This document shows positions 4,636-19,441 of a DNA stretch of 46,777 nucleotides, in pieces. The stretch covers positions 1 through 46,777 of the forward strand of contig JAJQAD010000192.1 of assembly GCA_021204005.1 (NCBI GenBank), read 5' to 3'. Within the stretch, counting starts at the first letter, position 1. Each line of letters opens with the position of its first letter. Source of the stretch: Clostridiales bacterium. Its GTDB lineage: Bacteria; Bacillota; Clostridia; Lachnospirales; Lachnospiraceae. The notes under the pieces were generated by a model. The model had not been told where the DNA came from. It saw nothing but the letters and a program-made list of their open reading frames with translations, and made no database searches. The translations under genes and the position numbers were made by a program.

Positions 4636-5853
4636 TCAAGGCATTCTCCGCAACAGTTCCACTTCGATAATCTCCCCCGCTCCATGACTTTTCTCACCCA
4701 ACGCAGAGATATACACCGCATCCGCCGTCAGGGCTGCCGCCGAGCCGACAGCTCCGGGACCGCGCAAAGACAGGATATCTGCCAAGTAAGGAGCCGCGCT
4801 GCTTTCCGGCGCTTTCTCCAGGCAGACGGCTGACATAGCAGAGAAAAAGGGCGGCACCTGAAAAGGCCGCTTCAGGATCGCTTTCACGCGCGCCCGCTCC
4901 GGCACCGGAATACCGAGCGCACGGCAAACCAACGGCCTCACTGCCCAATCCATATTATAAAAAGCAGCAAAAGACGGTCCGGCCAGGTTCAAAACCAGTT
5001 TATCACCCACCATAGCTGCGCTGAGCGGGCGTCCCGGAACCGCCGCTACTCCATGAAAAAGAGAACTTCCTTTCTCCGCTAAAATCCCGGCGCAATAATC
5101 TTCGCCGCCCTTTGAAGTGCCCGCGTTCACAAGCAGAATATCACACTCCGGCAGCAATTTATCCATAGCACTGGCGAGAATCACCCTGTCATCCCGCACA
5201 ATGGGATGCAGCACCGGTTCCGCTCCCATATCCCGAAGCATCTGACATACCATCACGCTGTTCGTGTCAAAATTCTGCCCTCGCTCCGGCACCGCCCCCA
5301 TCGGCACTAATTCACTTCCTGTAGGCAAAAAAGCAACACGCGGTTTTTTCACAACCGGCACCGCATCCATTCCTCCCATTGCAATTGCGGCCATTTCTGT
5401 TGCGTGAAGAATCCGCCCTGCGCTGCATAAAAGAGATCCTCTCCTTACATCCGCCCCCTGCGGCTTTACGTTAAATCCCCGGGATGCATTCACTTTTTCC
5501 GGAAGCCTTATACCGCCGTTTTTCAGAAATTCCACATTTTCTATGGCAATGACCGCATCATAATCATCCGGAAAATCATCCCCGGTATCCGCCCTCACAT
5601 AATCCCGCCCGGGCATCCATTGGCTTGTGTCCGGCATACCGTTTGTAAAAGAGGCGGACCGCATCGCAATTCCATCCATCTGTGACGCCCTGACCACGGG
5701 CAGGTTATATTTAGCAAACTGATCCTCAGCCAGTACCCGGCCGTCTGCTTCCTTGAGCGGCACGATTTCCGTCTTCCGCTCCGGTGTCCACGCTGCAAAC
5801 ATCCGTTTTAACGCTTCTTCCTTTGAAATCAAATCTTTTACATCTGAACGCAT
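4636..5853 (-). CDS. Divergent MoeA-like molybdopterin molybdotransferase-family protein
   Basis: MoeA N-terminal pattern (ISKEEALKRMF...LKEADGRVLAEDQFAKYNLPVVRASQMDGIAMRS) and MoCF-binding domain with altered motifs; RBS AGAGGAG before ATG at 5853. Confidence 0.85.
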   Translation of the reverse strand: MRSDVKDLISKEEALKRMFAAWTPERKTEIVPLKEADGRVLAEDQFAKYNLPVVRASQMDGIAMRSASFTNGMPDTSQWMPGRDYVRADTGDDFPDDYDAVIAIENVEFLKNGGIRLPEKVNASRGFNVKPQGADVRRGSLLCSAGRILHATEMAAIAMGGMDAVPVVKKPRVAFLPTGSELVPMGAVPERGQNFDTNSVMVCQMLRDMGAEPVLHPIVRDDRVILASAMDKLLPECDILLVNAGTSKGGEDYCAGILAEKGSSLFHGVAAVPGRPLSAAMVGDKLVLNLAGPSFAAFYNMDWAVRPLVCRALGIPVPERARVKAILKRPFQVPPFFSAMSAVCLEKAPESSAAPYLADILSLRGPGAVGSAAALTADAVYISALGEKSHGAGEIIEVELLRRMP

Positions 5854-5986
5854 TCCAAATCTCCTCTGTTCTTTTTTCACTGACAACCATTAATCCCGAA
5901 CAACCGCGCATATATACTTACTATTATAAACATACCCGCAAATGATCACAACAGATTTCTTACACACAACTGCGCATACAACAGGC

Positions 5987-6126: not shown

Positions 6127-7347
6127 TTAATCACAGTAAATAGCCGCCAGCTGCTCCTCTGTAAGTTCCACCCCGTACATGTAGCTGAAATATTCAGAAA
6201 CCGTCTCTGTCAGATCATAGTTCACATAATCCGGATATACAATCGATGCACAGTACAGGCATCCCAGCACCCGCAGGCTGTTGGGAGAACGGTCAAACCA
6301 ATTCTGAGGCATCAGCGGAATCTGATACACGTCCCCGTTCTGGACCGCAGTGATGCCGGACCACTCATCAGAGGTGGTGATATCCTGGTAAGCAGGCTGC
6401 ATCCACACAAAGATATACTCCGGATCCCACTGGACAACCTGTTCCAAAGTTACTTCCTCCAGGCCGCCCATGCCGGACATGGAAATATCATCCCCCACGC
6501 AGTTTTCCAGTCCGCAGAATTCAAACACTGCCGCATGCATGGAGCCAACCGCCTCTGTAAACAGTCCGTCTGTCTGCTCTGCATAGTAATAGGTCGGGAC
6601 ATCGGCCGCTGCTACCGCAGCCTCCGCAGCTTCTGTCACCTGGTCCAGCAAACCCTGCAGATAAACGGAGACATCATATCCCCGCTGCGCTGCGCCAAAC
6701 CAGAGGCCGATATTTGCCGCGCATTCCGCGGAATCCGCGATATCACGGCTCAGGCAGATAACCGGAATCCCATACTCCTCCGCTGTCTCATCCGCAGAAG
6801 CCACGGTAGCTGCCAGACCATCCTCTGTACAATCGTATGTATTGATAATGACATCCGGGCTGACGGCCAGGATATTCTCCTCATTCGCGGTGCTATCCCC
6901 GTAATTGCCGCCGATCGTCTCCAGATCACTGACAGACTCCGGGTAATAGGCCAGCGCCTCATCCTCGAACTCTGCTGCCCAGCCGATAATCTGATCGGGC
7001 ACGATCGCGCATAGCCATCCCTCCGCGGTAGGGCTGGAATTCCAGATGGTAGGATTCGCCTTAAAGGTGACCTCGCGACCCGCCATGTCGGTGATGGTGA
7101 TATTGCCGTCCTCATCAGGCTCCAGATCTTCCACAGTAACTGTTTCCTCTGCTTCTTCCACATCAGCTGCCTCTTCAGCCTCCGTTTCACTTTCCGATGT
7201 CTCCTCTGTCTCTGACACGGAGACATCCTCCGCTTCCGCACTTTGTCCGGCAGCACTGTCGTCACTTGCAGAGCCGCAGCCTGCCAGCAGCGTAAGTCCC
7301 AGCGCTGACGCCAGGAAAAGTGAACTGAATCTTTTCATGTTTCTCAT
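6127..7347 (-). CDS. ABC transporter substrate-binding lipoprotein, TroA/FecB-like (candidate molybdate/tungstate or iron-chelate binding)
   Basis: Lipobox signal MKRFSSLFLASALGLTLLAGCGS; periplasmic-binding fold; adjacent to FecE- and FecCD-like genes in a molybdenum locus. Confidence 0.87.
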   Translation of the reverse strand: MRNMKRFSSLFLASALGLTLLAGCGSASDDSAAGQSAEAEDVSVSETEETSESETEAEEAADVEEAEETVTVEDLEPDEDGNITITDMAGREVTFKANPTIWNSSPTAEGWLCAIVPDQIIGWAAEFEDEALAYYPESVSDLETIGGNYGDSTANEENILAVSPDVIINTYDCTEDGLAATVASADETAEEYGIPVICLSRDIADSAECAANIGLWFGAAQRGYDVSVYLQGLLDQVTEAAEAAVAAADVPTYYYAEQTDGLFTEAVGSMHAAVFEFCGLENCVGDDISMSGMGGLEEVTLEQVVQWDPEYIFVWMQPAYQDITTSDEWSGITAVQNGDVYQIPLMPQNWFDRSPNSLRVLGCLYCASIVYPDYVNYDLTETVSEYFSYMYGVELTEEQLAAIYCD

Positions 7348-7554: not shown

Positions 7555-8340
7555 CTACTGCTCTTTCATCACGGGGACACATCCCCGGATTACCTTTCCC
7601 TCCCACTCTGCGGTTGTGATACACACATCAATACCATAAACCCGGCGCATATTCTCCGGCGTCATCACGGTCTCCGGTGCACCACGTATGATTTCACCGT
7701 TTCGCGCCAGCAAAAGCACATCGGTACCGCAGAGAAACACGTGATCCGGCGTATGTGTCGTCATAATCACAATAATTCCCTGCGAAGCCAGTCTTTTTAC
7801 CGTTTCAAGCACCATGACCTGGTTTGCAAAATCAAGATTTGCCGCCGGCTCGTCCATTAGCAAAATCTTCGGCGACTGCACGAGCGCACGGGCAATCAAT
7901 ACCATCTGCCTTTCTCCTCCGCTGATTTGCGTGTAAACCCTGCTGCCCAGATGGGCAATGCCAACAGAATTCAGAATCTCATCCGCAAACGCATAGTCAC
8001 TTTCTGTGGGTGCGGAAAACATTCCGATACGCGAAACACACCCCATAACCACCACCTGCTGCACCGTATACGGAAACGGCGGCGTATGAGACTGCGGCAC
8101 AAACCCCATCACTCTTGCGCGGCGGCGCGCTCCCCACTTTATCATGGATTCCCCATCCACCTGTATATCGCCGCCGATACCCGGCAGAAGACCCATCAAT
8201 GTCTTAAACAGAGTCGTTTTTCCCACCCCGTTCGGTCCGAGTATGCAGAACACCGCTCCGCTCTCAACTGAGAAACTTAAGTCAGACACAACCGCCTTTC
8301 CCTGATAGCCGCAGCTGACATTGTCCACCGAAAAAATCAT
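7555..8340 (-). CDS. ABC transporter ATP-binding protein, FecE/BtuD type
   Basis: Walker A GPNGVGKTTL, signature ISGGERQMVLIARAL, Walker B ILLMDEP. Confidence 0.94.
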   Translation of the reverse strand: MIFSVDNVSCGYQGKAVVSDLSFSVESGAVFCILGPNGVGKTTLFKTLMGLLPGIGGDIQVDGESMIKWGARRRARVMGFVPQSHTPPFPYTVQQVVVMGCVSRIGMFSAPTESDYAFADEILNSVGIAHLGSRVYTQISGGERQMVLIARALVQSPKILLMDEPAANLDFANQVMVLETVKRLASQGIIVIMTTHTPDHVFLCGTDVLLLARNGEIIRGAPETVMTPENMRRVYGIDVCITTAEWEGKVIRGCVPVMKEQ

Positions 8341-9380
8341 AGCCAGCTGCCCCTCCCTTTCATCAACAGGATCAGGAAAAACGGCGCCCCGATAATAGCG
8401 GTCAGAATGCCGATGGATACCTCCACCGTAAAAAACACGCGGGTAATATTGTCTACCAGCATCAGGAAAATCGCTCCACCCAGTGCGGAAGCCGGCAGCA
8501 GATAACGGTAATCCGGTCCGACGATAAACCGCATCAAATGCGGGACAACCAGGCCAATCCAGCCTACCATTCCGCAGGCAGCGACAGATGCGGAGGTCGC
8601 CAAAGTAGCACAGATAATCGTTGCCAGCCGCACCCTTCGGACATTTACTCCCATCATCACCGCCTCCTCATCGCCAAAAGAAACCACATTTAAACGATAG
8701 GAGAATAAAAGCAGCGGTACCACACTGATCAACACAGGAATGAGCAGAATGGGCAACGACTTCAACTTCAGATTTGCCATGCTCCCCATCAGCCAAAACG
8801 TGATTTCCCCCAGCTGATTGTCCGTATCTGCCAAAAGTTTTGTGATGGACACGCCGGCCGAAAACAGAGAAGACACCACCATTCCTGTCAAAACCAAAGT
8901 CGTCGTGTTATTTGTTTTTCCCGAAACGGTGTAGCTGATAAACAACGTCAGCGCCACTGCAACCATCCCAAAGAAAAATGCGGACGTCTGCTGCACCAGC
9001 AGCGGTGCGGTTGCCAGAATGGATGTGCAGGCTCCAAAAGCCGCCCCGGAGGTGGCTCCCAGCAAATCCGGGGAAACCATTGGGTTGTGAAAAACGCCTT
9101 GATAGGATGCGCCCGAGACAGACAATGCAGCTCCCACGAAAATACAGGCCGTCAGCCGCGGCAGGCGGACATTCATAAGCGCCACATAGCCGTTGTGAGT
9201 ATATTCCAGGTCAAAGCCCAGACCGGCACCCAGAATGTGAAAAATCTCCTGCAACGACAGTGGATAAATCCCCTGTGTCATAGATATCAGAAACACAAAA
9301 ATCATAAAAACCACTAGTCCGGCAAGAATCAGCCGCAGATGCTTTCTCTGTTTTTTATTACCGGATGCAATCACTGACAT
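8337..9380 (-). CDS. FecCD-family ABC transporter permease
   Basis: 347 aa polytopic; RLPRLTACIFVGAALSVSGASYQGVFHNPMVSPDLLGATSGAAFG FecCD signature; overlaps the ATPase start. Confidence 0.95.
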   Translation of the reverse strand: MSVIASGNKKQRKHLRLILAGLVVFMIFVFLISMTQGIYPLSLQEIFHILGAGLGFDLEYTHNGYVALMNVRLPRLTACIFVGAALSVSGASYQGVFHNPMVSPDLLGATSGAAFGACTSILATAPLLVQQTSAFFFGMVAVALTLFISYTVSGKTNNTTTLVLTGMVVSSLFSAGVSITKLLADTDNQLGEITFWLMGSMANLKLKSLPILLIPVLISVVPLLLFSYRLNVVSFGDEEAVMMGVNVRRVRLATIICATLATSASVAACGMVGWIGLVVPHLMRFIVGPDYRYLLPASALGGAIFLMLVDNITRVFFTVEVSIGILTAIIGAPFFLILLMKGRGSWL

Positions 9381-9406
9381 ACATTCCTCCCTGAATTAGA
9401 AACACA

Positions 9407-9429
9407 CGTTATTTTTTTAAAATATAACG
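9407..9429 (-). promoter_or_regulatory. Candidate ModE-type operator of the FecCD-type transporter
   Basis: CGTTAT-N11-ATAACG dyad, 8 nt downstream of the inferred -10 on the minus strand. Confidence 0.5.
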
Positions 9430-9437
9430 CTGTTTAA

Positions 9438-9466
9438 ACCATAGTCTTATATTTTTGGATAGTCAA
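9438..9466 (-). promoter_or_regulatory. Candidate sigma70-type promoter for the FecCD-type transporter
   Basis: Minus strand TTGACT-N17-TATGGT. Confidence 0.5.
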
Positions 9467-9583
9467 ATTCCATATCCGAACTATATCATTCACTGTCGGA
9501 ATGCAGGTACAGAGCCGCGGAAGATCATTCCGGATACAACTTTTTTTATTCTGTACCTGAATCATCAAAATCGGCAACTCTCA

Positions 9584-9612
9584 TTGACACACACGCTTTC
9601 ATATCTTAAAAT
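9584..9612 (+). promoter_or_regulatory. Candidate sigma70-type promoter of modA
   Basis: TTGACA-N17-TAAAAT. Confidence 0.65.
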
Positions 9613-9620
9613 ATAGTTAT

Positions 9621-9644
9621 CGTTATTCGTTCAAAAGAATATCG
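9621..9644 (+). promoter_or_regulatory. Candidate ModE-type operator of modABC
   Basis: CGTTAT-N12-ATATCG, compatible with CGnTAT...ATAnCG; 8 nt downstream of the inferred -10. Confidence 0.55.
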
Positions 9645-9765
9645 GCGACGTAGTTTTTTGTACATTTCTGTGATTGGGGCAACAATAGCATTGTCCAGTC
9701 GGGGAACTCTGCACAGATATGTATGAAGTGATGAAATACCACCAACCATCCAAGGAGGACATGCA

Positions 9766-10731
9766 ATGAAAAAGAAAGTATTAAGTATCCTGCTTGCTGC
9801 CATGCTCGGCACATCCATGCTGGCCGGCTGCGGCAGCACCAGCAGCAGCGACACCGCTGAGGAGACCACAGACGAAACTGTTTCCGCTGAGGCGGAGGAA
9901 ACCACCGATGATTCCGCCGAAGCCGAGGAAGAGGTTTCTGCAGAAGAGGAATCCACAGAACAGTTTGAGGCAACCACCGTTACCATTTATGCGGCAGCCA
10001 GCCTGCAGACCGTGCTGACCGAACTCATCGACGTTTACAATGAGACCCAGCCCAACGTAGAGATCGTGGGAAGCTATGACAGCTCCGGCACTCTGCTGAC
10101 CCAGATCGAGGAAGCAGCCGGCGACGGTATCGACATCTTCTTCTCCGCAGCACAGAAGCAGATGAACACACTGGAAGAGGATGACGGTCTGGTCGTGGAC
10201 GGAACCCGCCACAACGTCGTAAATAACCAGGTGTGTGTCATCACCTACACCGGCAGCGAGACCACCGTAACCGGACTGGAAGACATCGCAAACGCATCCA
10301 GCCTGGCTCTTGCGGACGGTTCTGTTCCGGTTGGTAAATACACCCGTCAGGCACTGGTAAACGCCGGCATGCTGGACGAAGTGGAGGATGTCTCCACGAT
10401 CACCACCGATGAGGTCTCCGCAGCGCTCGGCGGTATCGAAATCAATGAATGCGGCAATGTCAGCAAGGTGCTCCAGGCGGTAGCAGAGCAGTCCAACGAG
10501 GTTGGCACAACCTACTATTCTGATACATACGGATATGAAGATCAGGTTGAAATTCTTGAAGTTGTAAGTTATGATTTAACAGGAGATGTCATCTATCCTG
10601 TAGCGCAGGTTGCAAACGGCAGCGCAGACGAGCTTGAGTCGGCTGCGGCGGCAGATTTTATCGAGTTCCTTATCTCAGATGAAGCAAAAGCGATTTTTGA
10701 GAAGTATTACTTCGACACAGATGTGGAGTAA
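9766..10731 (+). CDS. modA: Molybdate ABC transporter substrate-binding protein
   Basis: Lipobox (LLAAMLGTSMLAGCG); TVTIYAAASLQTVLTELIDVYNETQPNVEIVGSYDSSGTLLTQIEEAAGDGIDIFFSAA ModA pattern; followed by modB and modC. Confidence 0.95.
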   Translation: MKKKVLSILLAAMLGTSMLAGCGSTSSSDTAEETTDETVSAEAEETTDDSAEAEEEVSAEEESTEQFEATTVTIYAAASLQTVLTELIDVYNETQPNVEIVGSYDSSGTLLTQIEEAAGDGIDIFFSAAQKQMNTLEEDDGLVVDGTRHNVVNNQVCVITYTGSETTVTGLEDIANASSLALADGSVPVGKYTRQALVNAGMLDEVEDVSTITTDEVSAALGGIEINECGNVSKVLQAVAEQSNEVGTTYYSDTYGYEDQVEILEVVSYDLTGDVIYPVAQVANGSADELESAAAADFIEFLISDEAKAIFEKYYFDTDVE

Positions 10732-10894: not shown

Positions 10895-11599
10895 ATGGAA
10901 ACATTGATCAACATTTTATCAGGATTAGACTGGAGCCCGCTGTTTATCTCATTAAAAACCGGAATCGTGGCGACCGTAATCTGCTTTTTCCTCGGCATCT
11001 TTGCAGCAAGCAAAGTCATTCGCGCCGGGGAACGGGGCAAAGCAATCGCAGACGGCTTCCTCACACTCCCCATGGTACTGCCGCCGACAGTGGCCGGATT
11101 TTTCCTGCTTCTGCTGTTCAGCCTGAAACGGCCGCTGGGTAGTTTCCTGTTTAACCAGTTTGGCATCAAGATCGTACAGACCTGGGCCGGCTGCATCATC
11201 GCGGCTACCATCATCGCCTTTCCGCTGATGTACCGCAACGCGCGGGCAGCATTCGAACAGCTCGACTCCAACCTGGTCTACGCGGGACGGACCCTTGGCA
11301 TGTCCGAGTTCCAGATTTTCTGGAAGATCATCGTCCCCAACTCTGGTCCCGGCATCGTCTCCGGCACCATCCTCACGTTCGCGCGGGCACTGGGCGAATA
11401 CGGCGCCACCTCCATGCTGGCAGGAAATATCCCGCACAAGACATCCACCATCTCGCAGCGCATCGCCATGGTCATCCAGGACGGCGACTATTTAACCGGC
11501 GGCGTCTGGGTGATTATTATCCTGCTCATCGCTTTCGGCGTTATCGTATCGATGAATCTGGTGGCCGGAAAAAATATGAAAAATGTACAGCGGTGGTGA
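10895..11599 (+). CDS. modB: Molybdate ABC transporter permease
   Basis: ModB/CysTW family; LPMVLPPTVAGFFLLLLF, GRTLGMSEFQIFWKIIVPNSGPGIVSG, FARALGEYGATSMLAGNIP. Confidence 0.96.
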   Translation: METLINILSGLDWSPLFISLKTGIVATVICFFLGIFAASKVIRAGERGKAIADGFLTLPMVLPPTVAGFFLLLLFSLKRPLGSFLFNQFGIKIVQTWAGCIIAATIIAFPLMYRNARAAFEQLDSNLVYAGRTLGMSEFQIFWKIIVPNSGPGIVSGTILTFARALGEYGATSMLAGNIPHKTSTISQRIAMVIQDGDYLTGGVWVIIILLIAFGVIVSMNLVAGKNMKNVQRW

Positions 11600-11604
11600 T
11601 TAAT

Positions 11605-12750
11605 ATGTCAATAGACGTAGCAATAAAGAAAAAAATCGGAAATTTTTTCCTCGATACAACCTTCCAGACAGAAGAAAATGAAGTATTCGCCATCCTCGGC
11701 GCTTCCGGCTGCGGCAAAAGTATGACCTTAAAATGCATCGCCGGCATTGAGACGCCCGACGAGGGACATATCATCCTGAACGGAAAGACCCTGTTTGATT
11801 CCGCGAAAAAAATTAACCTGATTCCACAGAAGCGCCGGGTCGGCTATATGTTTCAGGACTACGCGCTCTTTCCGAATATGACAGTGGAAAAGAATATCAT
11901 GGCCGGGATGGGAAAGCATCCGAACCCTGCCATCGTGCAGACCTATATCGAAAGATTTCATCTGGACGGACTGACCAATCATCTGCCGCGGCAGCTTTCC
12001 GGCGGACAGAAGCAGCGGGTAGCGCTGGCACGAATGTTGGCCTCGGAACCGGAAATTCTGCTTCTGGATGAACCGCTTTCCGCGCTGGATACCTATCTAA
12101 AATGGCAGGTGGAGGAGGAACTGGCAGAGCTTTTCACCGGTATCCAGAAAACAATCCTCTTTGTAACGCACAGCAGGGACGAAGTATACCATCTCTGCGA
12201 CCGGGTCTGCGTGCTGAGCAACGGCCATGTGGAAACAATCCAGCCGAAAAAAGACTTTTTCGCAAATCCGGAAACGATCTCTGCTGCACGGCTCTCCGGC
12301 TGCCGGAATTTTTCCCGGGCAGAGCGGATTTCCGCCCACGAAATCTTCGCGCCGGACTGGCAGATGCGCTTTGTGCTGGAACGGGAAGTACCGGAAGATC
12401 TGGCCTATGTCGGCGCCCGCGCCCACTATATTGAAGTCATTTCGGACACCAGCGGCACGGCGATTCCGAAGGTTGGACCGACATCCGTGGAGGACGAAGA
12501 CAATACGCACAATATCGGTTCTGCGCCCGTGAAAACCAGGGGCGATGCCATCCCCGCCAACTGCGCCGTCATGCAGGTAGACCACCTGATGGAGCAGCAG
12601 TTTGAATCCGAGCTGATTTTAAACTGCGGCGATGAGAGCGGGACACAGATGCGGCTGCTGATGGATAAAGGACGGGCACTGGAACTGTCCGGACAGGAAA
12701 AACTGGAAATCAGGATACCGGAAGCAGCCCTCCTGTTGCTAAGGGAATAA
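11605..12750 (+). CDS. modC: Molybdate ABC transporter ATP-binding protein
   Basis: Walker A GASGCGKSMTL, LSGGQKQRVALARMLASEPEILLLDEPLSALD; C-terminal TOBE-like region; overlaps the modB end. Confidence 0.93.
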   Translation: MSIDVAIKKKIGNFFLDTTFQTEENEVFAILGASGCGKSMTLKCIAGIETPDEGHIILNGKTLFDSAKKINLIPQKRRVGYMFQDYALFPNMTVEKNIMAGMGKHPNPAIVQTYIERFHLDGLTNHLPRQLSGGQKQRVALARMLASEPEILLLDEPLSALDTYLKWQVEEELAELFTGIQKTILFVTHSRDEVYHLCDRVCVLSNGHVETIQPKKDFFANPETISAARLSGCRNFSRAERISAHEIFAPDWQMRFVLEREVPEDLAYVGARAHYIEVISDTSGTAIPKVGPTSVEDEDNTHNIGSAPVKTRGDAIPANCAVMQVDHLMEQQFESELILNCGDESGTQMRLLMDKGRALELSGQEKLEIRIPEAALLLLRE

Positions 12751-12819: not shown

Positions 12820-13305
12820 ATGAATCAGGACTTTACCCACTTCGATAATCAGGGCAATGCCGTCATGGTCGATGTCTCCGAAAAACCCGTAACCTCCCGC
12901 ACCGCGACAGCAACCGGAAGCATTCTGGTCTGCGGCGAAGTAATGCAGGCCGTTCGGGAAGGCACCTCAAAAAAAGGAGATGTCCTCGGCGTCGCCAGGG
13001 TCGCCGGAATTATGGGAGTAAAGCAGACTTCCTCCCTCATCCCGCTCTGCCACACCCTGCTGATCCAGAAATGCAGCATTGATTTTAAATTAGAACCGGA
13101 AAATCGACGCATCAACGCCACCTGCACCGTACAATGTTCCGGACAGACCGGAGTGGAGATGGAAGCGCTGACTGGAGTGAGCACGGCGCTGCTCACCATC
13201 TACGACATGTGCAAAGCCATCGACAAGACAATGGTCATTTCCGATATCCATCTTGTCGAAAAGGCTGGCGGAAGAAGCGGACATTTTGTTTATAAGGAAA
13301 TATAG
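12820..13305 (+). CDS. moaC: Cyclic pyranopterin monophosphate synthase
   Basis: [83 protein letters not shown]. Confidence 0.98.
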
Positions 13306-13309
13306 AAAT

Positions 13310-14422
13310 ATGAGAGATTCCTTCCACAGAGAAATCAACTACATGAGAATTTCCATCACCGACCGCTGTAATCTCCGCTGTGTCTACTGCATGCCTCACG
13401 GGATTCCGACGATTCCCATGGCGGAAATCCTTACATTTGAGGAAATCGCGCGCGTCTGCAGGCAGGCTGTTTGTTTAGGCATCACCCGTTTTAAGATTAC
13501 CGGCGGCGAACCGCTCGCCCGCCTCGGCTGCCCGGACCTGATTCGCATGATCCGACAGATTCCCGACGTGCAGCAGGTGACCATGACAACCAACGGCGTC
13601 CTCCTGGGGAAATATCTGAGAGAGCTTGCAGAAGCCGGACTGGACGCAGTCAACATCAGCCTGGACACAACCGATCGGAATTTATATGCAAAAATTACCG
13701 GTTCCGACTGCCTGAGTCAGGTGATTTCTTCCCTGGAAGCTGCCCGGCAATACGGTTTGAAAGTGAAAATCAATTCCGTCCTGCAGCAGAACCTCAACGC
13801 TGATGCCTGGAGAGATCTGCTGGCACTGGCAAAACGATACGGAATAGATATTCGTTTTATAGAACTCATGCCGGTCGGTCAGGGAAAATGCGGCGCTCCG
13901 ATCTCCAACACAGACCTGTACCGGCAGATTGAAAATGAATTCGGACAACTCACACCGGATAAAAAACGGCACGGAAACGGACCCGCTGTCTACTATCGCC
14001 TTCCCGGTTTTGACGGCAGTGTCGGCTTCATCAGTCCGATTCACGGAAAGTTCTGCAATACCTGCAACCGCATCCGCATGACTTCCACCGGTGAAATCAA
14101 GCCGTGCCTGGGTTATGAAAGCACTTTCGATGTCAGGGCTGCACTGCGGGGCAACATCGTGTTGTCGCAATGTCAAAAAGATGTTATTCTGCAATCAGAG
14201 CAGAATCCAGATATCACATTACAAAACCAGGATGATGAAACCGTGCGGCGTATTCTGGCGGAGGCCATCTCAGCCAAACCAAAGATGCACTGCTTTGAAA
14301 CACTCACGAAAAACGCCGCGGGACATCTGCAAGAACATCTGCCAGAGCATCTGCCGGAACAGGACTTCGTCGGCAGACCTTTGGCCGCCGAGACAAGAGA
14401 TATGTCAAAAATCGGAGGATAG
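13310..14422 (+). CDS. moaA: GTP 3',8-cyclase (radical SAM)
   Basis: Radical SAM RISITDRCNLRCVYCMP; second cluster FCNTCNRIRMTSTGEIKPCL; C-terminal GG. Confidence 0.97.
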   Translation: MRDSFHREINYMRISITDRCNLRCVYCMPHGIPTIPMAEILTFEEIARVCRQAVCLGITRFKITGGEPLARLGCPDLIRMIRQIPDVQQVTMTTNGVLLGKYLRELAEAGLDAVNISLDTTDRNLYAKITGSDCLSQVISSLEAARQYGLKVKINSVLQQNLNADAWRDLLALAKRYGIDIRFIELMPVGQGKCGAPISNTDLYRQIENEFGQLTPDKKRHGNGPAVYYRLPGFDGSVGFISPIHGKFCNTCNRIRMTSTGEIKPCLGYESTFDVRAALRGNIVLSQCQKDVILQSEQNPDITLQNQDDETVRRILAEAISAKPKMHCFETLTKNAAGHLQEHLPEHLPEQDFVGRPLAAETRDMSKIGG

Positions 14423-14464
14423 CTGCTCCTATTTTGGCGGCATTGATACGAAAGGAGAAATCAG

Positions 14465-15397
14465 ATGGGAAAGATTTTACATATCTGCATCAGTACAAAA
14501 CGGGGCACACTCAAACAGGAGGTAGATTCCGCTCACCTTATTCCCGGATGGGGCATTGAAAACGACGCCCACGCGGGAAAGTGGCACCGGCAGATCAGCC
14601 TCCTCTCCGCTGAAAAAATCCGTGAATTTCAGGCCAGAAGCGCCCAGGTAGAACCGGGAGCATTCGGAGAAAACCTGGTCGTGGAAGGTGTTGACCTGCG
14701 TGCGCTTCCTGTCGGCACCCGTTTTCGCATTGGGGATGCGCTTCTGGAAATGACCCAGATCGGGAAGGAATGTCACACGCACTGTCAGATTTATCAGACC
14801 ATGGGCGACTGCATCATGCCCCGGGAAGGAGTCTTTGCCGAAGTCCTGACCGAAGGTACCATTCAAAAGGGAGATACCATAGAGATGATCGCAGCAAATC
14901 CGGACCGGCCGTTTACCGCGGCGGTGATTACTCTGAGCGACAAGGGAGCCGCCGGAAAGCGTGAAGACAAAAGCGGCCCTGCCATCGTGAATCTTCTTCA
15001 GGCTGACAGCTACAATGTGAAAGAAACCCTGCTGCTCGCAGACGATCGGCCGTCACTGGAAAAGGAACTGATCCGCCTCGCAGACCAACGCCAGATCGAC
15101 GTCATTTTTACCACCGGGGGCACCGGTTTTTCCGAGCGCGATATCACGCCGGAGGCAACGATTGCCGTCTGCGACCGCATGGCAAACGGCATTGCCGAAG
15201 CCATCCGCGCCTATTCCATGACCATCACACCCCGCGCCATGTTAAGCCGCGCTGTCTCCGGCATCCGGAAAAAAACGCTGATCGTAAATCTCCCGGGCAG
15301 CCCAAAGGCCGTGACCGAAGCGCTGGAATTCCTGCTGCCGAGCCTGGGACATGGGCTCGGAATCCTGCGGGGAACCGAAGAAAACTGTGCACGCTAG
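14465..15397 (+). CDS. MOSC domain-MogA/MoaB (molybdopterin adenylyltransferase) fusion
   Basis: N-terminal MOSC (HAGKWHRQISLLSAEKI..GAFGENLVVEGVDLRALPVGTRFRIGDALLEMTQIGKECH); C-terminal MogA (AVITLSDKGAAGKREDKSGPAI..IFTTGGTGFSERDITPEAT). Confidence 0.93.
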   Translation: MGKILHICISTKRGTLKQEVDSAHLIPGWGIENDAHAGKWHRQISLLSAEKIREFQARSAQVEPGAFGENLVVEGVDLRALPVGTRFRIGDALLEMTQIGKECHTHCQIYQTMGDCIMPREGVFAEVLTEGTIQKGDTIEMIAANPDRPFTAAVITLSDKGAAGKREDKSGPAIVNLLQADSYNVKETLLLADDRPSLEKELIRLADQRQIDVIFTTGGTGFSERDITPEATIAVCDRMANGIAEAIRAYSMTITPRAMLSRAVSGIRKKTLIVNLPGSPKAVTEALEFLLPSLGHGLGILRGTEENCAR

Positions 15398-15440
15398 CAA
15401 TGAGCCGTTCATCTTATAAATGAAAGGATTACGACATTAC

Positions 15441-17261
15441 ATGAACACCCAAACTTACCGCGAAGGAATCAACCTCGAAGATGCCGTAGACTGCATCTTA
15501 AACCACACAAAAAGAATTACCCGGACAGAGCGGCTTCCGCTTCTGTCCGCTGCCGGGCGGATTCTCGCCGAAGACATGTTCACAGAGATGGAAAATCCTC
15601 CCTTTGACCGCTCTCCTATCGACGGCTACGCCTGCCGTGCCGCCGACATCCGGGAAGCTTCCGCCGAGCACCCGGCTGTCCTCCGCGTCACAGAGGAAAT
15701 TGACGCGGGACAGTATTCTGACAACACCGTACAGCCAGGTGAAGCGGTCCGCATCATGACAGGCGCCGCAATACCACCGGGATGCGACTGCTGTGTGCGC
15801 CAGGAAAGCACCGACTATGGCGAGACAAGAGTATCCATCTGCGAACCGGTACCGGTACACGGCAACTACTGTGACCACGGCGAGGATTTCCAGAAAGGCA
15901 TCTGCATGCTGCATGCCGGGGATAAGCTCGGATATGTGGAATTAGCAAACCTGGCCGCCATGGGCGCAGAGTCCGTCCTCGTCTACGAAACACCCCGCAT
16001 CGCTCTGTTCACCACCGGCGATGAAGTGATGGAACCGGGACAGCCGCTTCTGCCCGGAAAAATCTATAACAGCAATTTTTACCTTCTCTCTGCAAGGCTG
16101 GCAGAGTTTGGAATCACACCGCTCTGGCAGAAACACATTCCGGACGACGCCAGAGCAGTCGCAGCGGCAATCCGCCGGGCTGCCGAAGAAGGCGCCGATC
16201 TCATCCTGACCACCGGCGGCGTCTCCGTGGGAAAAAAAGATATTCTGCATGAGACCATTCAGCTCCTGGATGCGGAAAAACTGTTCTGGAAAGTCCGCTT
16301 AAAACCCGGATCTCCGACCATCTTTTCCGTTTTTCGGGATGTACCCGTCATCAGCCTGTCCGGAAATCCTTTCGGCGCGCTGGCCAATATGGAACTGCTC
16401 GTCCGTCCTGCCCTGGCAAAAATGACAGAGGACAACAGCTATTCCATGCAGCAGACAAGCGCGATTCTTCAGGGGCAGTTCCGGAAAGCAAGCAAAGGCC
16501 GCCGGTTTATCCGAGCCCGGTATGAAAATGGTGCCGTCTATCTGCCGGACGGTCTCCACTCCTCCGGCGTACTGGCCTCCATGCGCGGCTGCAACTGCCT
16601 GATCGACATTGCCCCCGGCACCCCTGCGCTGAACCAGGGAGACCAGGTCAGGATCCGGCTCTTATATGCACCGGATAATTCGAGTGCAGTTATATCACCG
16701 TCTCCTGATACTGCCGCATCACAAGAAATAAGCAATAATATGCCACAGGACGCCCGGATCTTTGTCATTTCCGGCGTAAAAAACTCCGGCAAGACGACAC
16801 TGATCACCCGGCTGATCCCCATCTTCCGTGAAATGGGCTGGCGGACGGCAACCATCAAGCACGACGGGCACGGCTTTGACCCGGATGTCCCGGGAACGGA
16901 CAGTTATCGTCACCGGGCTGCCGGAGCCTGCGGCACGGCGATCTACTCCGACGATCTCACCATGGTGATCAAACAAAATCCTGCTGTGGTAACAGAAAAA
17001 GATCTGATCCGGGCATTCCCGGAAGCAGATCTGATCCTCCTGGAAGGATTTAAATGGACCGATTACCCGAAAATTGAAATTGTCCGGGAAGACAACTCCT
17101 CCGCTCCGGTCTGTGATCCGGATACACTGATCGGCATTGCCACGGATTGTGCGGACATCGGAGATTTTCCCGCGGATGTCCCTGTGCTGAACCTGAACCG
17201 GCCGGAGGAAATTGCACAGGCAATAAAGAACTATCTGACCGCCGGGAAAAATAAGAGATAA
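15441..17261 (+). CDS. MoeA-MobB fusion
   Basis: MoeA domains (FDRSPIDGYACRAADI..TTGGVSVGKKD..KPGSPTIFSV..SLSGNPFG) followed by MobB P-loop (ISGVKNSGKTTLITRLIP..TIKHDGHGFDPDVPGTDSYRHRAAGA). Confidence 0.94.
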   Translation: MNTQTYREGINLEDAVDCILNHTKRITRTERLPLLSAAGRILAEDMFTEMENPPFDRSPIDGYACRAADIREASAEHPAVLRVTEEIDAGQYSDNTVQPGEAVRIMTGAAIPPGCDCCVRQESTDYGETRVSICEPVPVHGNYCDHGEDFQKGICMLHAGDKLGYVELANLAAMGAESVLVYETPRIALFTTGDEVMEPGQPLLPGKIYNSNFYLLSARLAEFGITPLWQKHIPDDARAVAAAIRRAAEEGADLILTTGGVSVGKKDILHETIQLLDAEKLFWKVRLKPGSPTIFSVFRDVPVISLSGNPFGALANMELLVRPALAKMTEDNSYSMQQTSAILQGQFRKASKGRRFIRARYENGAVYLPDGLHSSGVLASMRGCNCLIDIAPGTPALNQGDQVRIRLLYAPDNSSAVISPSPDTAASQEISNNMPQDARIFVISGVKNSGKTTLITRLIPIFREMGWRTATIKHDGHGFDPDVPGTDSYRHRAAGACGTAIYSDDLTMVIKQNPAVVTEKDLIRAFPEADLILLEGFKWTDYPKIEIVREDNSSAPVCDPDTLIGIATDCADIGDFPADVPVLNLNRPEEIAQAIKNYLTAGKNKR

Positions 17262-17315
17262 ATCCATTACAGTTCCATCCGGCACAGTTGCAGCAATTTT
17301 TGCAGGAGGCGCCCT

Positions 17316-17672
17316 ATGCTCAGACCCAAAACCAAGATAGTAATCGAAAATAAAGACGATTTCTTCGGCCTCGGCGTGGCCGAGCTCTTCCGCCAGATTC
17401 AGGAACACGGCTCCATCAACATGGCGGCGCAGGCCATGCACATGTCCTACAGCAAATGCTGGAAACTGATCAAACGCGCGGAAAAAGTAGTCGGCTTTCC
17501 CATGCTCACACGACAGATTGGCGGAAAAAACGGCGGTTCCTCCGAACTGACCGACGAGGGAAAAGAATTTTTACAGCGATATCACGCGATGCGCCAGGAA
17601 ATACAGACGGCATCGGATGACATATTCCGGAAGTATTTTTCTGACGGATACACAAATACAGAGAAAGGATGA
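17316..17672 (+). CDS. ModE-like HTH regulator without a C-terminal molbindin domain
   Basis: 118 aa; GVAELFRQIQEHGSINMAAQAMHMSYSKCWKLIKRAEKVVGFPMLTRQIGGKNGGSSELTDEGKEFLQRY is typical of the ModE N-terminal domain. Confidence 0.92.
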   Translation: MLRPKTKIVIENKDDFFGLGVAELFRQIQEHGSINMAAQAMHMSYSKCWKLIKRAEKVVGFPMLTRQIGGKNGGSSELTDEGKEFLQRYHAMRQEIQTASDDIFRKYFSDGYTNTEKG

Positions 17673-18712
17673 ATCCTCACATGAAACTGATCAAAACAAC
17701 CGAGGCAGCAGGCCATGTCCTCTGCCACGACATCACACGAATCATTAAGGACGTGGTAAAGGATACCGCGTTCCGCAAAGGGCACATCGTCACCGAGGAG
17801 GACATTCCGGAGCTTCTCAAACTCGGGAAAGACCATCTCTACGTCTGGGAGAAAGGCGAAACCATGCTGCACGAAGATGAGGCCGCTGAAATACTCCGGG
17901 ATATCTGCCTCAATGACCACATGAAAGCGAGCAGCCCCAAAGAAGGTAAAATTGAACTGTCCGCCACCTGCAACGGTCTCTTTCAGATCGATGTGACACG
18001 CCTGGCCGCCGTCAATGAGATTGAGGAAATTATGATTGCCTCCCGCCACACCAACACAGCAGTCAAAACCGGCGACAAGCTTCTGGGAACCCGTATTATT
18101 CCACTCGTCATCGCAAAAGAAAAAATGGAGCGGGTAAAAAACACCGCCGGGAAAGAGCCTCTGGCCCGCATTGTCCCCTACCAGATCAAAAAAGCGGGCA
18201 TCATTACAACCGGAAATGAGGTATTCTATGGCAGAATCCAGGACACATTTACCCCGGTCGTCATGGAAAAACTGAAGAAATTCGGCATCGAAACGGTCGA
18301 ACATATCACGCTGAATGATGACAAAGAAAAAATAGCCGACGCTATCCTCGCATTAAAAGCAAAAGGCGTCGACCTCATCACCGTCACCGGCGGGATGAGC
18401 GTGGATCCGGACGATCAGACCCCCGGCGCCATCAAAATGTCGGGTGCGCATATCGTTACCTACGGCGCACCGGTGCTCCCGGGCGCCATGTTCCTGCTGG
18501 CCTATTTTGACGACGGAACTCCGGTCTGCGGACTTCCCGGATGCGTCATGTACAACAGAACGACCATCTTTGACATTGTCTTGCCGCGGCTGGCCGCCGG
18601 TGTGACCATGAGCAAAAAAGATTTTGCCTGCATGGGAAACGGCGGATTCTGTCTTGGATGTCCCACCTGCACTTTCCCCAACTGCGGATACGGAAAAGGA
18701 ACGCCGATTTAA
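17669..18712 (+). CDS. Molybdopterin-binding (MoCF-fold) protein with Cys-rich C-terminus
   Basis: MoCF-like ITTGNEVFYGRIQDTFTPVV..LITVTGGMSVDPDDQTPGAI..GLPGCVMYN; C-terminal CMGNGGFCLGCPTCTFPNCGYGKG; overlaps the ModE-like stop. Confidence 0.9.
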   Translation: MNPHMKLIKTTEAAGHVLCHDITRIIKDVVKDTAFRKGHIVTEEDIPELLKLGKDHLYVWEKGETMLHEDEAAEILRDICLNDHMKASSPKEGKIELSATCNGLFQIDVTRLAAVNEIEEIMIASRHTNTAVKTGDKLLGTRIIPLVIAKEKMERVKNTAGKEPLARIVPYQIKKAGIITTGNEVFYGRIQDTFTPVVMEKLKKFGIETVEHITLNDDKEKIADAILALKAKGVDLITVTGGMSVDPDDQTPGAIKMSGAHIVTYGAPVLPGAMFLLAYFDDGTPVCGLPGCVMYNRTTIFDIVLPRLAAGVTMSKKDFACMGNGGFCLGCPTCTFPNCGYGKGTPI

Positions 18713-18850
18713 ATTTTATTCGTTCCTACTATAAAGGACGTCCTCAGACGCATGAGAGAGGGCAGTTTGCACAGCCTTTCATCTGGCGAAAAGCAAACGA
18801 CATTCATTTCCTATAATTATAGTCTCCATCCACACACTGAGAGGTACCAT

Positions 18851-19441
18851 ATGGACTCCCTGGCCATCCTCCTCCTGGCTGGCGGCTACAGCCGCCGCAT
18901 GGGACAAAATAAAGCAAATCTGACAATGGAAGGACAGACTTTCGCAGAAAAAATCGCTGCGGAGCTGTCCTCCTGCGGTCCGGTCTATCTGTCCGTCTCG
19001 GCAGACATAGCACCGGATTTCAGTGCAAATACGGAAAAATACCCCCGCATCGTTGATGAAATTCCACACATCGGACCCCTGGGCGGCATCAGTGCCGCCA
19101 TGCACCAGACCGATGCGGACGCTTACTTTGTCTGCGCCTGCGATATGCCCCGGATGAATGCCGCCTTTGTGCGCCATCTCATCCGGATCTGGGAACAGAT
19201 TAACACGGATGCTCTGCTGGTACGAAGCAGGAGCGGCCGCATCTATACCACTGCCGGGATTTATCACCGGAATATCCTGCCGCTGATAGAAAAACAGATC
19301 CTTGAAAAAAATTACCGGCTTCGGGATCTGCTCACAGCAAGCAAAGTATTTTATCTGGAAGAAAGCAGTCTGGGCGAACTGAAAAATTGCCTGACCAACA
19401 TAAATACCATGGAAGAATATCAAAAACTATCTGAATGGTGA
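18851..19441 (+). CDS. mobA: MobA-like molybdenum cofactor nucleotidyltransferase
   Basis: LAILLLAGGYSRRMGQNKANLTMEGQTF..DEIPHIGPLGGISAAMHQTDADAYFVCACDMPRMN; RBS GAGAGG before ATG. Confidence 0.9.
   Translation: MDSLAILLLAGGYSRRMGQNKANLTMEGQTFAEKIAAELSSCGPVYLSVSADIAPDFSANTEKYPRIVDEIPHIGPLGGISAAMHQTDADAYFVCACDMPRMNAAFVRHLIRIWEQINTDALLVRSRSGRIYTTAGIYHRNILPLIEKQILEKNYRLRDLLTASKVFYLEESSLGELKNCLTNINTMEEYQKLSEW

Follow-up and report, generated by a model that had tools for sequence, protein, structure and literature searches.

Predicted ModE-type operators at two divergent promoters for molybdate uptake in a member of the Lachnospiraceae

The stretch of DNA that was analysed (46,777 bases, hereafter the window) contains an intergenic region that extends from a FecCD-type permease gene (9380-8337, minus strand) to modA (9766-10731, plus strand), with two divergent sigma-A-type promoters inside it. 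The features of the region and of the genes on both sides are as follows.

4636-5886, minus strand: MoeA-like protein, after the transporter genes (PF03453 and PF00994)
6127-7347, minus strand: substrate-binding protein, Peripla_BP_2, MolA-like (PF01497, 46.4 bits)
7555-8340, minus strand: ATPase of a type II importer, MolC-like (PF00005)
8337-9380, minus strand: FecCD-type (type II) ABC permease, MolB-like (PF01032, 280.8 bits)
9407-9429, minus strand: predicted ModE-type operator for the FecCD-type transporter genes, CGTTAT-N11-ATAACG, both halves perfect
9438-9466, minus strand: sigma-A-type promoter of the FecCD-type operon, the weaker of the two (9 of 12 positions match the consensus), TTGACT-N17-TATGGT, 8 nt ahead of the operator
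9584-9612, plus strand: sigma-A-type promoter of modABC, TTGACA-N17-TAAAAT, 8 nt ahead of the operator
9621-9644, plus strand: predicted ModE-type operator of modABC, CGTTAT-N12-ATATCG, right half altered from ATAACG
9766-10731, plus strand: modA, molybdate-binding protein (TIGR01256, above cut-off)
10895-11599, plus strand: modB, permease (TIGR02141, above cut-off)
11593-12750, plus strand: modC, ATPase (TIGR02142 best match, below cut-off)
12820-19441, plus strand: moaC, moaA, MOSC/MogA, moeA-mobB, modE, moeA-like and mobA (open reading frames on the same strand as modA)
17316-17672, plus strand: modE, single-domain LysR-type winged helix-turn-helix (HTH) protein of 118 aa (TIGR00637, PF00126)

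The plus-strand genes follow each other in the order modA, modB, modC, moaC, moaA, a MOSC/MogA fusion, a moeA-mobB fusion, modE, a moeA-like gene and mobA. The last four were identified by profiles, and moaC, moaA and MOSC by reading the translations. We infer that the run from modA to mobA is probably co-transcribed as a single transcript. The modE gene and the moeA-like gene that follows it overlap by 4 bases (17669-17672), so that translational coupling is likely, and the pair is adjacent in several relatives. A profile search did not find a TOBE domain (PF03459) in the modC product. Another LysR-type protein, recognized by inspection, is encoded at 69-1088 of the window.

On the minus strand, profiles identify a FecCD permease, an ATPase and a Peripla_BP_2 binding protein in one operon, which is the composition of MolBCA-type importers. 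The operon is linked to molybdenum by the MoeA-like gene that follows the transporter genes; it is also divergent from modA, and its homologues lie beside ModE-domain genes, FecCD homologues adjoining such genes in genomes G076, G089 and G136. The operon fits a MolBCA-like type II molybdate importer, molybdate being the putative substrate. In Haemophilus influenzae, Mod and Mol importers occur together, and the repression of molB by molybdate is ascribed to an unknown factor (PMC4031551). The type II (FecCD/BtuCD-like) MolBC-A importer of that organism thus coexists with ModABC, as in the window; unlike the H. influenzae mol genes, the window operon carries a specific predicted operator, a ModE-type box, at its promoter.

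The initial annotation had located both promoters and both dyads, each dyad 8 nt beyond a -10 hexamer, and direct reading together with a scan gave the same coordinates and the same 8-nt gap at both. The plus-strand dyad, CGTTATTCGTTCAAAAGAATATCG, is an imperfect palindrome with N12 and one base off in its right half, and the minus-strand dyad, CGTTATATTTTAAAAAAATAACG, has N11 and two perfect halves. The pattern CGNTAT-N9..14-ATANCG occurs in just two places in the 46,777 bases, namely these dyads. Both sites have the outer half-sites CGnTAT and ATAnCG of the E. coli-type ModE operator; the N12 spacing of that operator is found at 9621-9644, and 9407-9429 has N11. The description of each as a ModE-like dyad therefore stood as far as their presence is concerned, but it had not weighed the difference in spacing, nor had it mentioned that the protein lacks a molbindin domain.

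The E. coli ModE consensus is printed as atCGnTATATA-N6-TATATAnCGat (PMC545781). In genome records, the E. coli modA operator is CGTTATATTGTCGCCTACATAACG, that is CGTTAT-N12-ATAACG, 19 bp ahead of the modA start codon, which bears out the proposed compatibility of the dyads with the E. coli box. In half-sites and N12 spacing this modABCD operator matches the boxes of the family described below, and it likewise controls a molybdate ABC importer. Since the boxes of the family and of E. coli have N12, the modA dyad of the window has the canonical spacing but one imperfect half, whereas the fec dyad has perfect halves and a non-canonical spacing.

Pattern and promoter searches within this one genome are less telling. 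The looser pattern CGTTATN{10,13}ATANCG has 8 matches per strand genome-wide, against 2-3 for a reversed control, and the matches outside the window region are mostly intragenic or in hairpins. The promoter scan by itself is weak, with 3 promoter-like sites against 1.4 in shuffles. We consider the geometry of the window non-random because it is conserved in relatives.

Three genomes of the same genus (G001, G006 and G017) encode ModE proteins with 93%, 96% and 85% identity, respectively, to that of the window. In all three the modA promoter reads TTGACA-N17-TAAAAT-N8-CGTTAT, with hexamers and spacing identical to those of the window, and the right half-site is ATAACG or ATAGCG, at N12. In a member of another genus (G034), whose 45%-identical ModE is encoded on a different contig, modA is preceded by TTGATC-N17-TAGAAT-N8-CGTTATTTTCAAATGAGAATAACG, which begins with CGTTAT; here the hexamers have diverged and the distances are the same as in the window. 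The search for CGTTAT dyads in orthologous intergenic regions, proposed in the initial annotation, thus finds them conserved at modA in three same-genus genomes and one of another genus. In other genera, FecCD-type operons for a binding protein and a permease are likewise preceded by N12 boxes. At one locus (L168:2932-2955 and 2971-2994) the modA box is present as a tandem duplicate of identical sequence, 39 bp apart.

A survey of 36 genomes of the family with a ModE-type protein found perfect boxes (CGTTAT-N12-ATAACG) upstream of modA (G034, G112 twice, G169), of a binding-protein/FecCD operon (G067), of moeA-like genes (G061, G102, G160, G162), of selD (G162, G179; also G052, same order), of yqeB (G145, G161) and of a gene for a YedE-like protein that matches Sulf_transp (G154); the names selD, yqeB and moeA-like in relatives come from reading the translations. 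Furthermore, modE, the box and a FecCD operon are found together in G067, G153 and G166, and a FecCD operon with a box also in G031 and G162. Upstream of molybdate transport genes the box is thus conserved in company with a ModE. At locus L092 (2634-2657) one box is common to two opposed promoters, for a FecCD permease and for a binding protein, TTGACA-N17-TACGAT lying at 8 nt on one side and TTGACA-N17-TATATT at 9 nt on the other.

Among 35 genomes that lack a stand-alone ModE and served as controls there were 9 perfect matches, 8 of them intragenic and one in a terminator-like hairpin, and none at molybdenum genes; three of these genomes (G005, G012, G014) encode a MocA-ModE fusion, so that the set is a control for stand-alone ModE only. 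A perfect palindrome followed by a T run, CGTTATAGATAAAATCTATAACG (L038:1833-1855 and L191:1501-1523), is a terminator rather than a ModE box, and is kept in a species without a stand-alone ModE.

The spacing of the half-sites was analyzed in 611 kb of sequence around modE and FecCD genes, where pairs with at most one mismatch were counted at spacings of 6-18. There were 22 pairs at N12, 6 at N11 and 0-3 at every other spacing, with a slight bias to N11 and N12 because four regions (L157, L158, L168, L169) had been extended after pattern matches were known. Almost every N12 pair immediately precedes a molybdenum or selenium-hydroxylase gene. The selD, yqeB and YedE-like genes have ModE-type boxes ahead of them at L049:12967, L114:1861, L138:1501, L117:1897, L124:2011 and L136:1501. 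These positions suggest that in this family the ModE regulon includes maturation genes of selenium-dependent molybdenum hydroxylases.

The promoter offset was compared with 400 shuffles for 23 boxes, modA copies from the same genus counting as one. The distance from the end of the best upstream promoter to the box was exactly 8 nt for 8 of the 23 (shuffled mean 0.16, maximum 2) and 7-9 nt for 10 of the 23 (shuffled mean 0.48, maximum 3), whereas for more than half of the boxes a clear promoter 7-9 nt upstream is missing. Immediately ahead of the selD boxes a clear promoter is lacking, and these boxes may act at internal starts. With this 8-nt gap and its conservation at modA, the earlier judgement that the matching geometry makes chance less likely holds, also outside this genome, though the gap is not shared by all boxes.

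A 24-column matrix was made from 23 boxes of other genomes only and used to scan the window, the genome-wide level being covered by pattern searches. At N12 the site at 9621 ranked first in the window with 22.1 bits, the next best scoring 10.2. For N11 one middle column was left out of the matrix, and the site at 9407 then ranked first with 36.7 bits (next 9.5).

These results bear on the idea that the dyads are RNA hairpins, or A/T-rich palindromes that arose by chance. Two other perfect palindromes of the genome, on contigs C39 and C242, are terminator- or hairpin-like, and were set aside as such. However, the conservation of the dyads, the control genomes and the ranking by a matrix derived from other genomes all speak against this explanation, as does the fact that no terminator was called in 9200-9900; at the sequence level, conservation refutes it, and we give it a negligible probability. 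A terminator or hairpin origin of both dyads was dropped on the same terminator result, and a Moco riboswitch was dropped as a candidate because no Rfam match was found in the window.

The N11 spacing of the fec dyad raises a more serious alternative, in which only the modA dyad works, the fec dyad is decayed or 1 bp too short, and the FecCD-type operon lies outside ModE control. The fec spacing is 1 bp below the family norm, and the site is the only perfect N11 box in the scanned neighbourhoods, the other perfect boxes near molybdenum genes all having N12. The fec promoter is also the weaker of the two, and a close fec orthologue was not found in the same-genus genomes, the best FecCD there having 48% identity, so that the fec site has no orthologous footprint for comparison. 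On the other side, both fec half-sites are perfect and the flanking A/T pattern gives the high score in the N11 matrix, the 8-nt promoter offset is kept, and FecCD-type operons of other genera bear ModE boxes. We regard this alternative as improbable.

The protein itself resembles the DNA-binding part of ModE, as the initial annotation had proposed for the product of 17316. It scores 69.8 bits (E 1.5e-19) against TIGR00637, below the curated cut-off of 98.5, its HTH is matched by PF00126, and it aligns to the ModE structures 1b9m and 1o7l (E about 3e-6) and to the 135-aa single-domain homologue 2ijl (E 1.2e-13). It thus has the N-terminal winged HTH of ModE, though under the curated TIGR00637 threshold. 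A profile search found only the HTH in its 118 aa, and no C-terminal molbindin (TOBE/MOP) domain. PF03459 (TOBE/MOP) had no match across the window genome, which is 93% complete, nor in the ModE-bearing sister genomes G001, G006, G017 and G018, and a molbindin partner protein elsewhere in the window genome was sought and not found. A double-MOP protein of about 150 aa is present in eight same-genus species that lack this stand-alone ModE.

This architecture differs from that of E. coli ModE, which has a C-terminal double molbindin domain made of two TOBE domains (PMC11980592). The gene position differs as well: in E. coli, modE is a gene of its own that lies upstream of modA on the opposite strand, whereas the window modE lies inside the run of molybdenum genes. 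The ModE-like protein of Campylobacter jejuni is not known to have a metal domain, and is, as in the window, a ModE-type DNA-binding protein tied to Mo/W transporters. It is described as regulating separate Mo and W transporters in Taveirne 2009, as cited in PMC4139814. A predicted single-domain ModE of Desulfovibrio, which consists of the DNA-binding domain only (PMC545781), is likewise tied to Mo/W transporters, and a stand-alone ModE that lacks a molbindin domain poses the same sensing question as that protein.

The Desulfovibrio case also favours a reading in which the dyads are bound by another regulator, such as a LysR-type or tungstate regulator, that merely coincides with ModE. The motif assigned to the Desulfovibrio protein, CGGTCACG-N14-CGTGACCG (PMC545781), is quite different and not of the E. 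coli type, whereas the single-domain ModE of the window goes with an E. coli-type box; furthermore, the window genome encodes other LysR-type proteins. However, the boxes lie beside ModE genes or in ModE genomes in many genera and are absent at molybdenum genes where a stand-alone ModE is lacking, and their halves and spacing equal those of the E. coli ModE operator, so that we see only a very slight chance of such a regulator.

Box conservation, the control genomes, the 8-nt gap, the matrix ranking and the match to the E. coli operator together support the reading of the dyads as ModE operators. We consider it highly probable that both are operators of the ModE encoded at 17316-17672, through which it would repress modABC with the cofactor genes and the MolBCA-like importer operon. 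The operator reading of both sites put forward initially is thus upheld by conservation, matrix and controls, repression through binding being its predicted consequence.

The sequence shows the boxes, their geometry, and that they are conserved along with ModE and molybdenum genes; from this we infer binding, start sites, repression, autoregulation and a Mo/W signal along the following lines. A ModE dimer would bind the box, which would start at about +1. Because the -10 hexamer ends 8 nt before the box, the bound dimer would block initiation or escape, and RNA polymerase would be stopped at two divergent promoters, that of modABC and the molybdenum-cofactor genes including modE, and that of the FecCD-type operon, a putative MolBCA-like molybdate/tungstate importer. 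When cell molybdenum is sufficient, both uptake systems would be off and modE would limit its own expression, modE being probably autoregulated since the modABC promoter lies upstream of it on its own strand.

At some boxes ModE might instead be an activator or a dual regulator, and not simply a repressor. In E. coli, ModE can act in either way, and some boxes of the family are otherwise placed, those of yqeB in G145 and G161 lying 14-15 nt after the -10 hexamer. Both window boxes, however, overlap the start expected from their geometry, a position typical of repressors, which makes this very unlikely. Repression by ModE through both boxes remains our preferred reading, and what it describes is a conserved ModE-type regulon, ordinary in kind and an example of a known control system.

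Some relatives hint at how molybdenum is sensed. In about 11 of the 39 loci examined, a protein of about 310 aa combines an N-terminal MobA/MocA-like nucleotidyltransferase domain (NTP_transf_3) with the ModE domain as its C-terminal part. Profiles identify such fusions at L158:7970-8911, L163:3209-4138, L164:2563-3495, L053:7765-8709 (minus strand) and L052:8525-9523 (minus strand), and also at L109, L113, L121 and L128; same-genus species of the window organism have them as well, and a description of the fusion was not found in the literature searched. The same box is present in the genomes G076, G102 and G154, each of which encodes a fusion. In G018 and G052, modE overlaps with a mobA-like gene, and in the window mobA lies two genes downstream of modE. 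This suggests that ModE here may read cofactor status rather than free molybdate. The more specific proposal, that ModE of this lineage reads molybdenum status via the cofactor pathway by contacting a MobA/MocA-like nucleotidyltransferase and not a molbindin, is a tentative one that we hold to be possible though doubtful.

The predicted regulon extends the E. coli-type ModE operator to a bacterial family whose ModE has no metal-sensing domain. FecCD-type importers are often annotated as transporters of iron or B12; the regulon would bring them under the control of molybdenum, and so correct a likely mis-annotation. It also offers a candidate for the kind of factor through which molybdate represses the mol genes of H. 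influenzae (PMC4031551). If sensing does run through the cofactor pathway, molybdenum uptake in these bacteria would be set by the demand for cofactor and not by free molybdate, with the E. coli-type operator kept.
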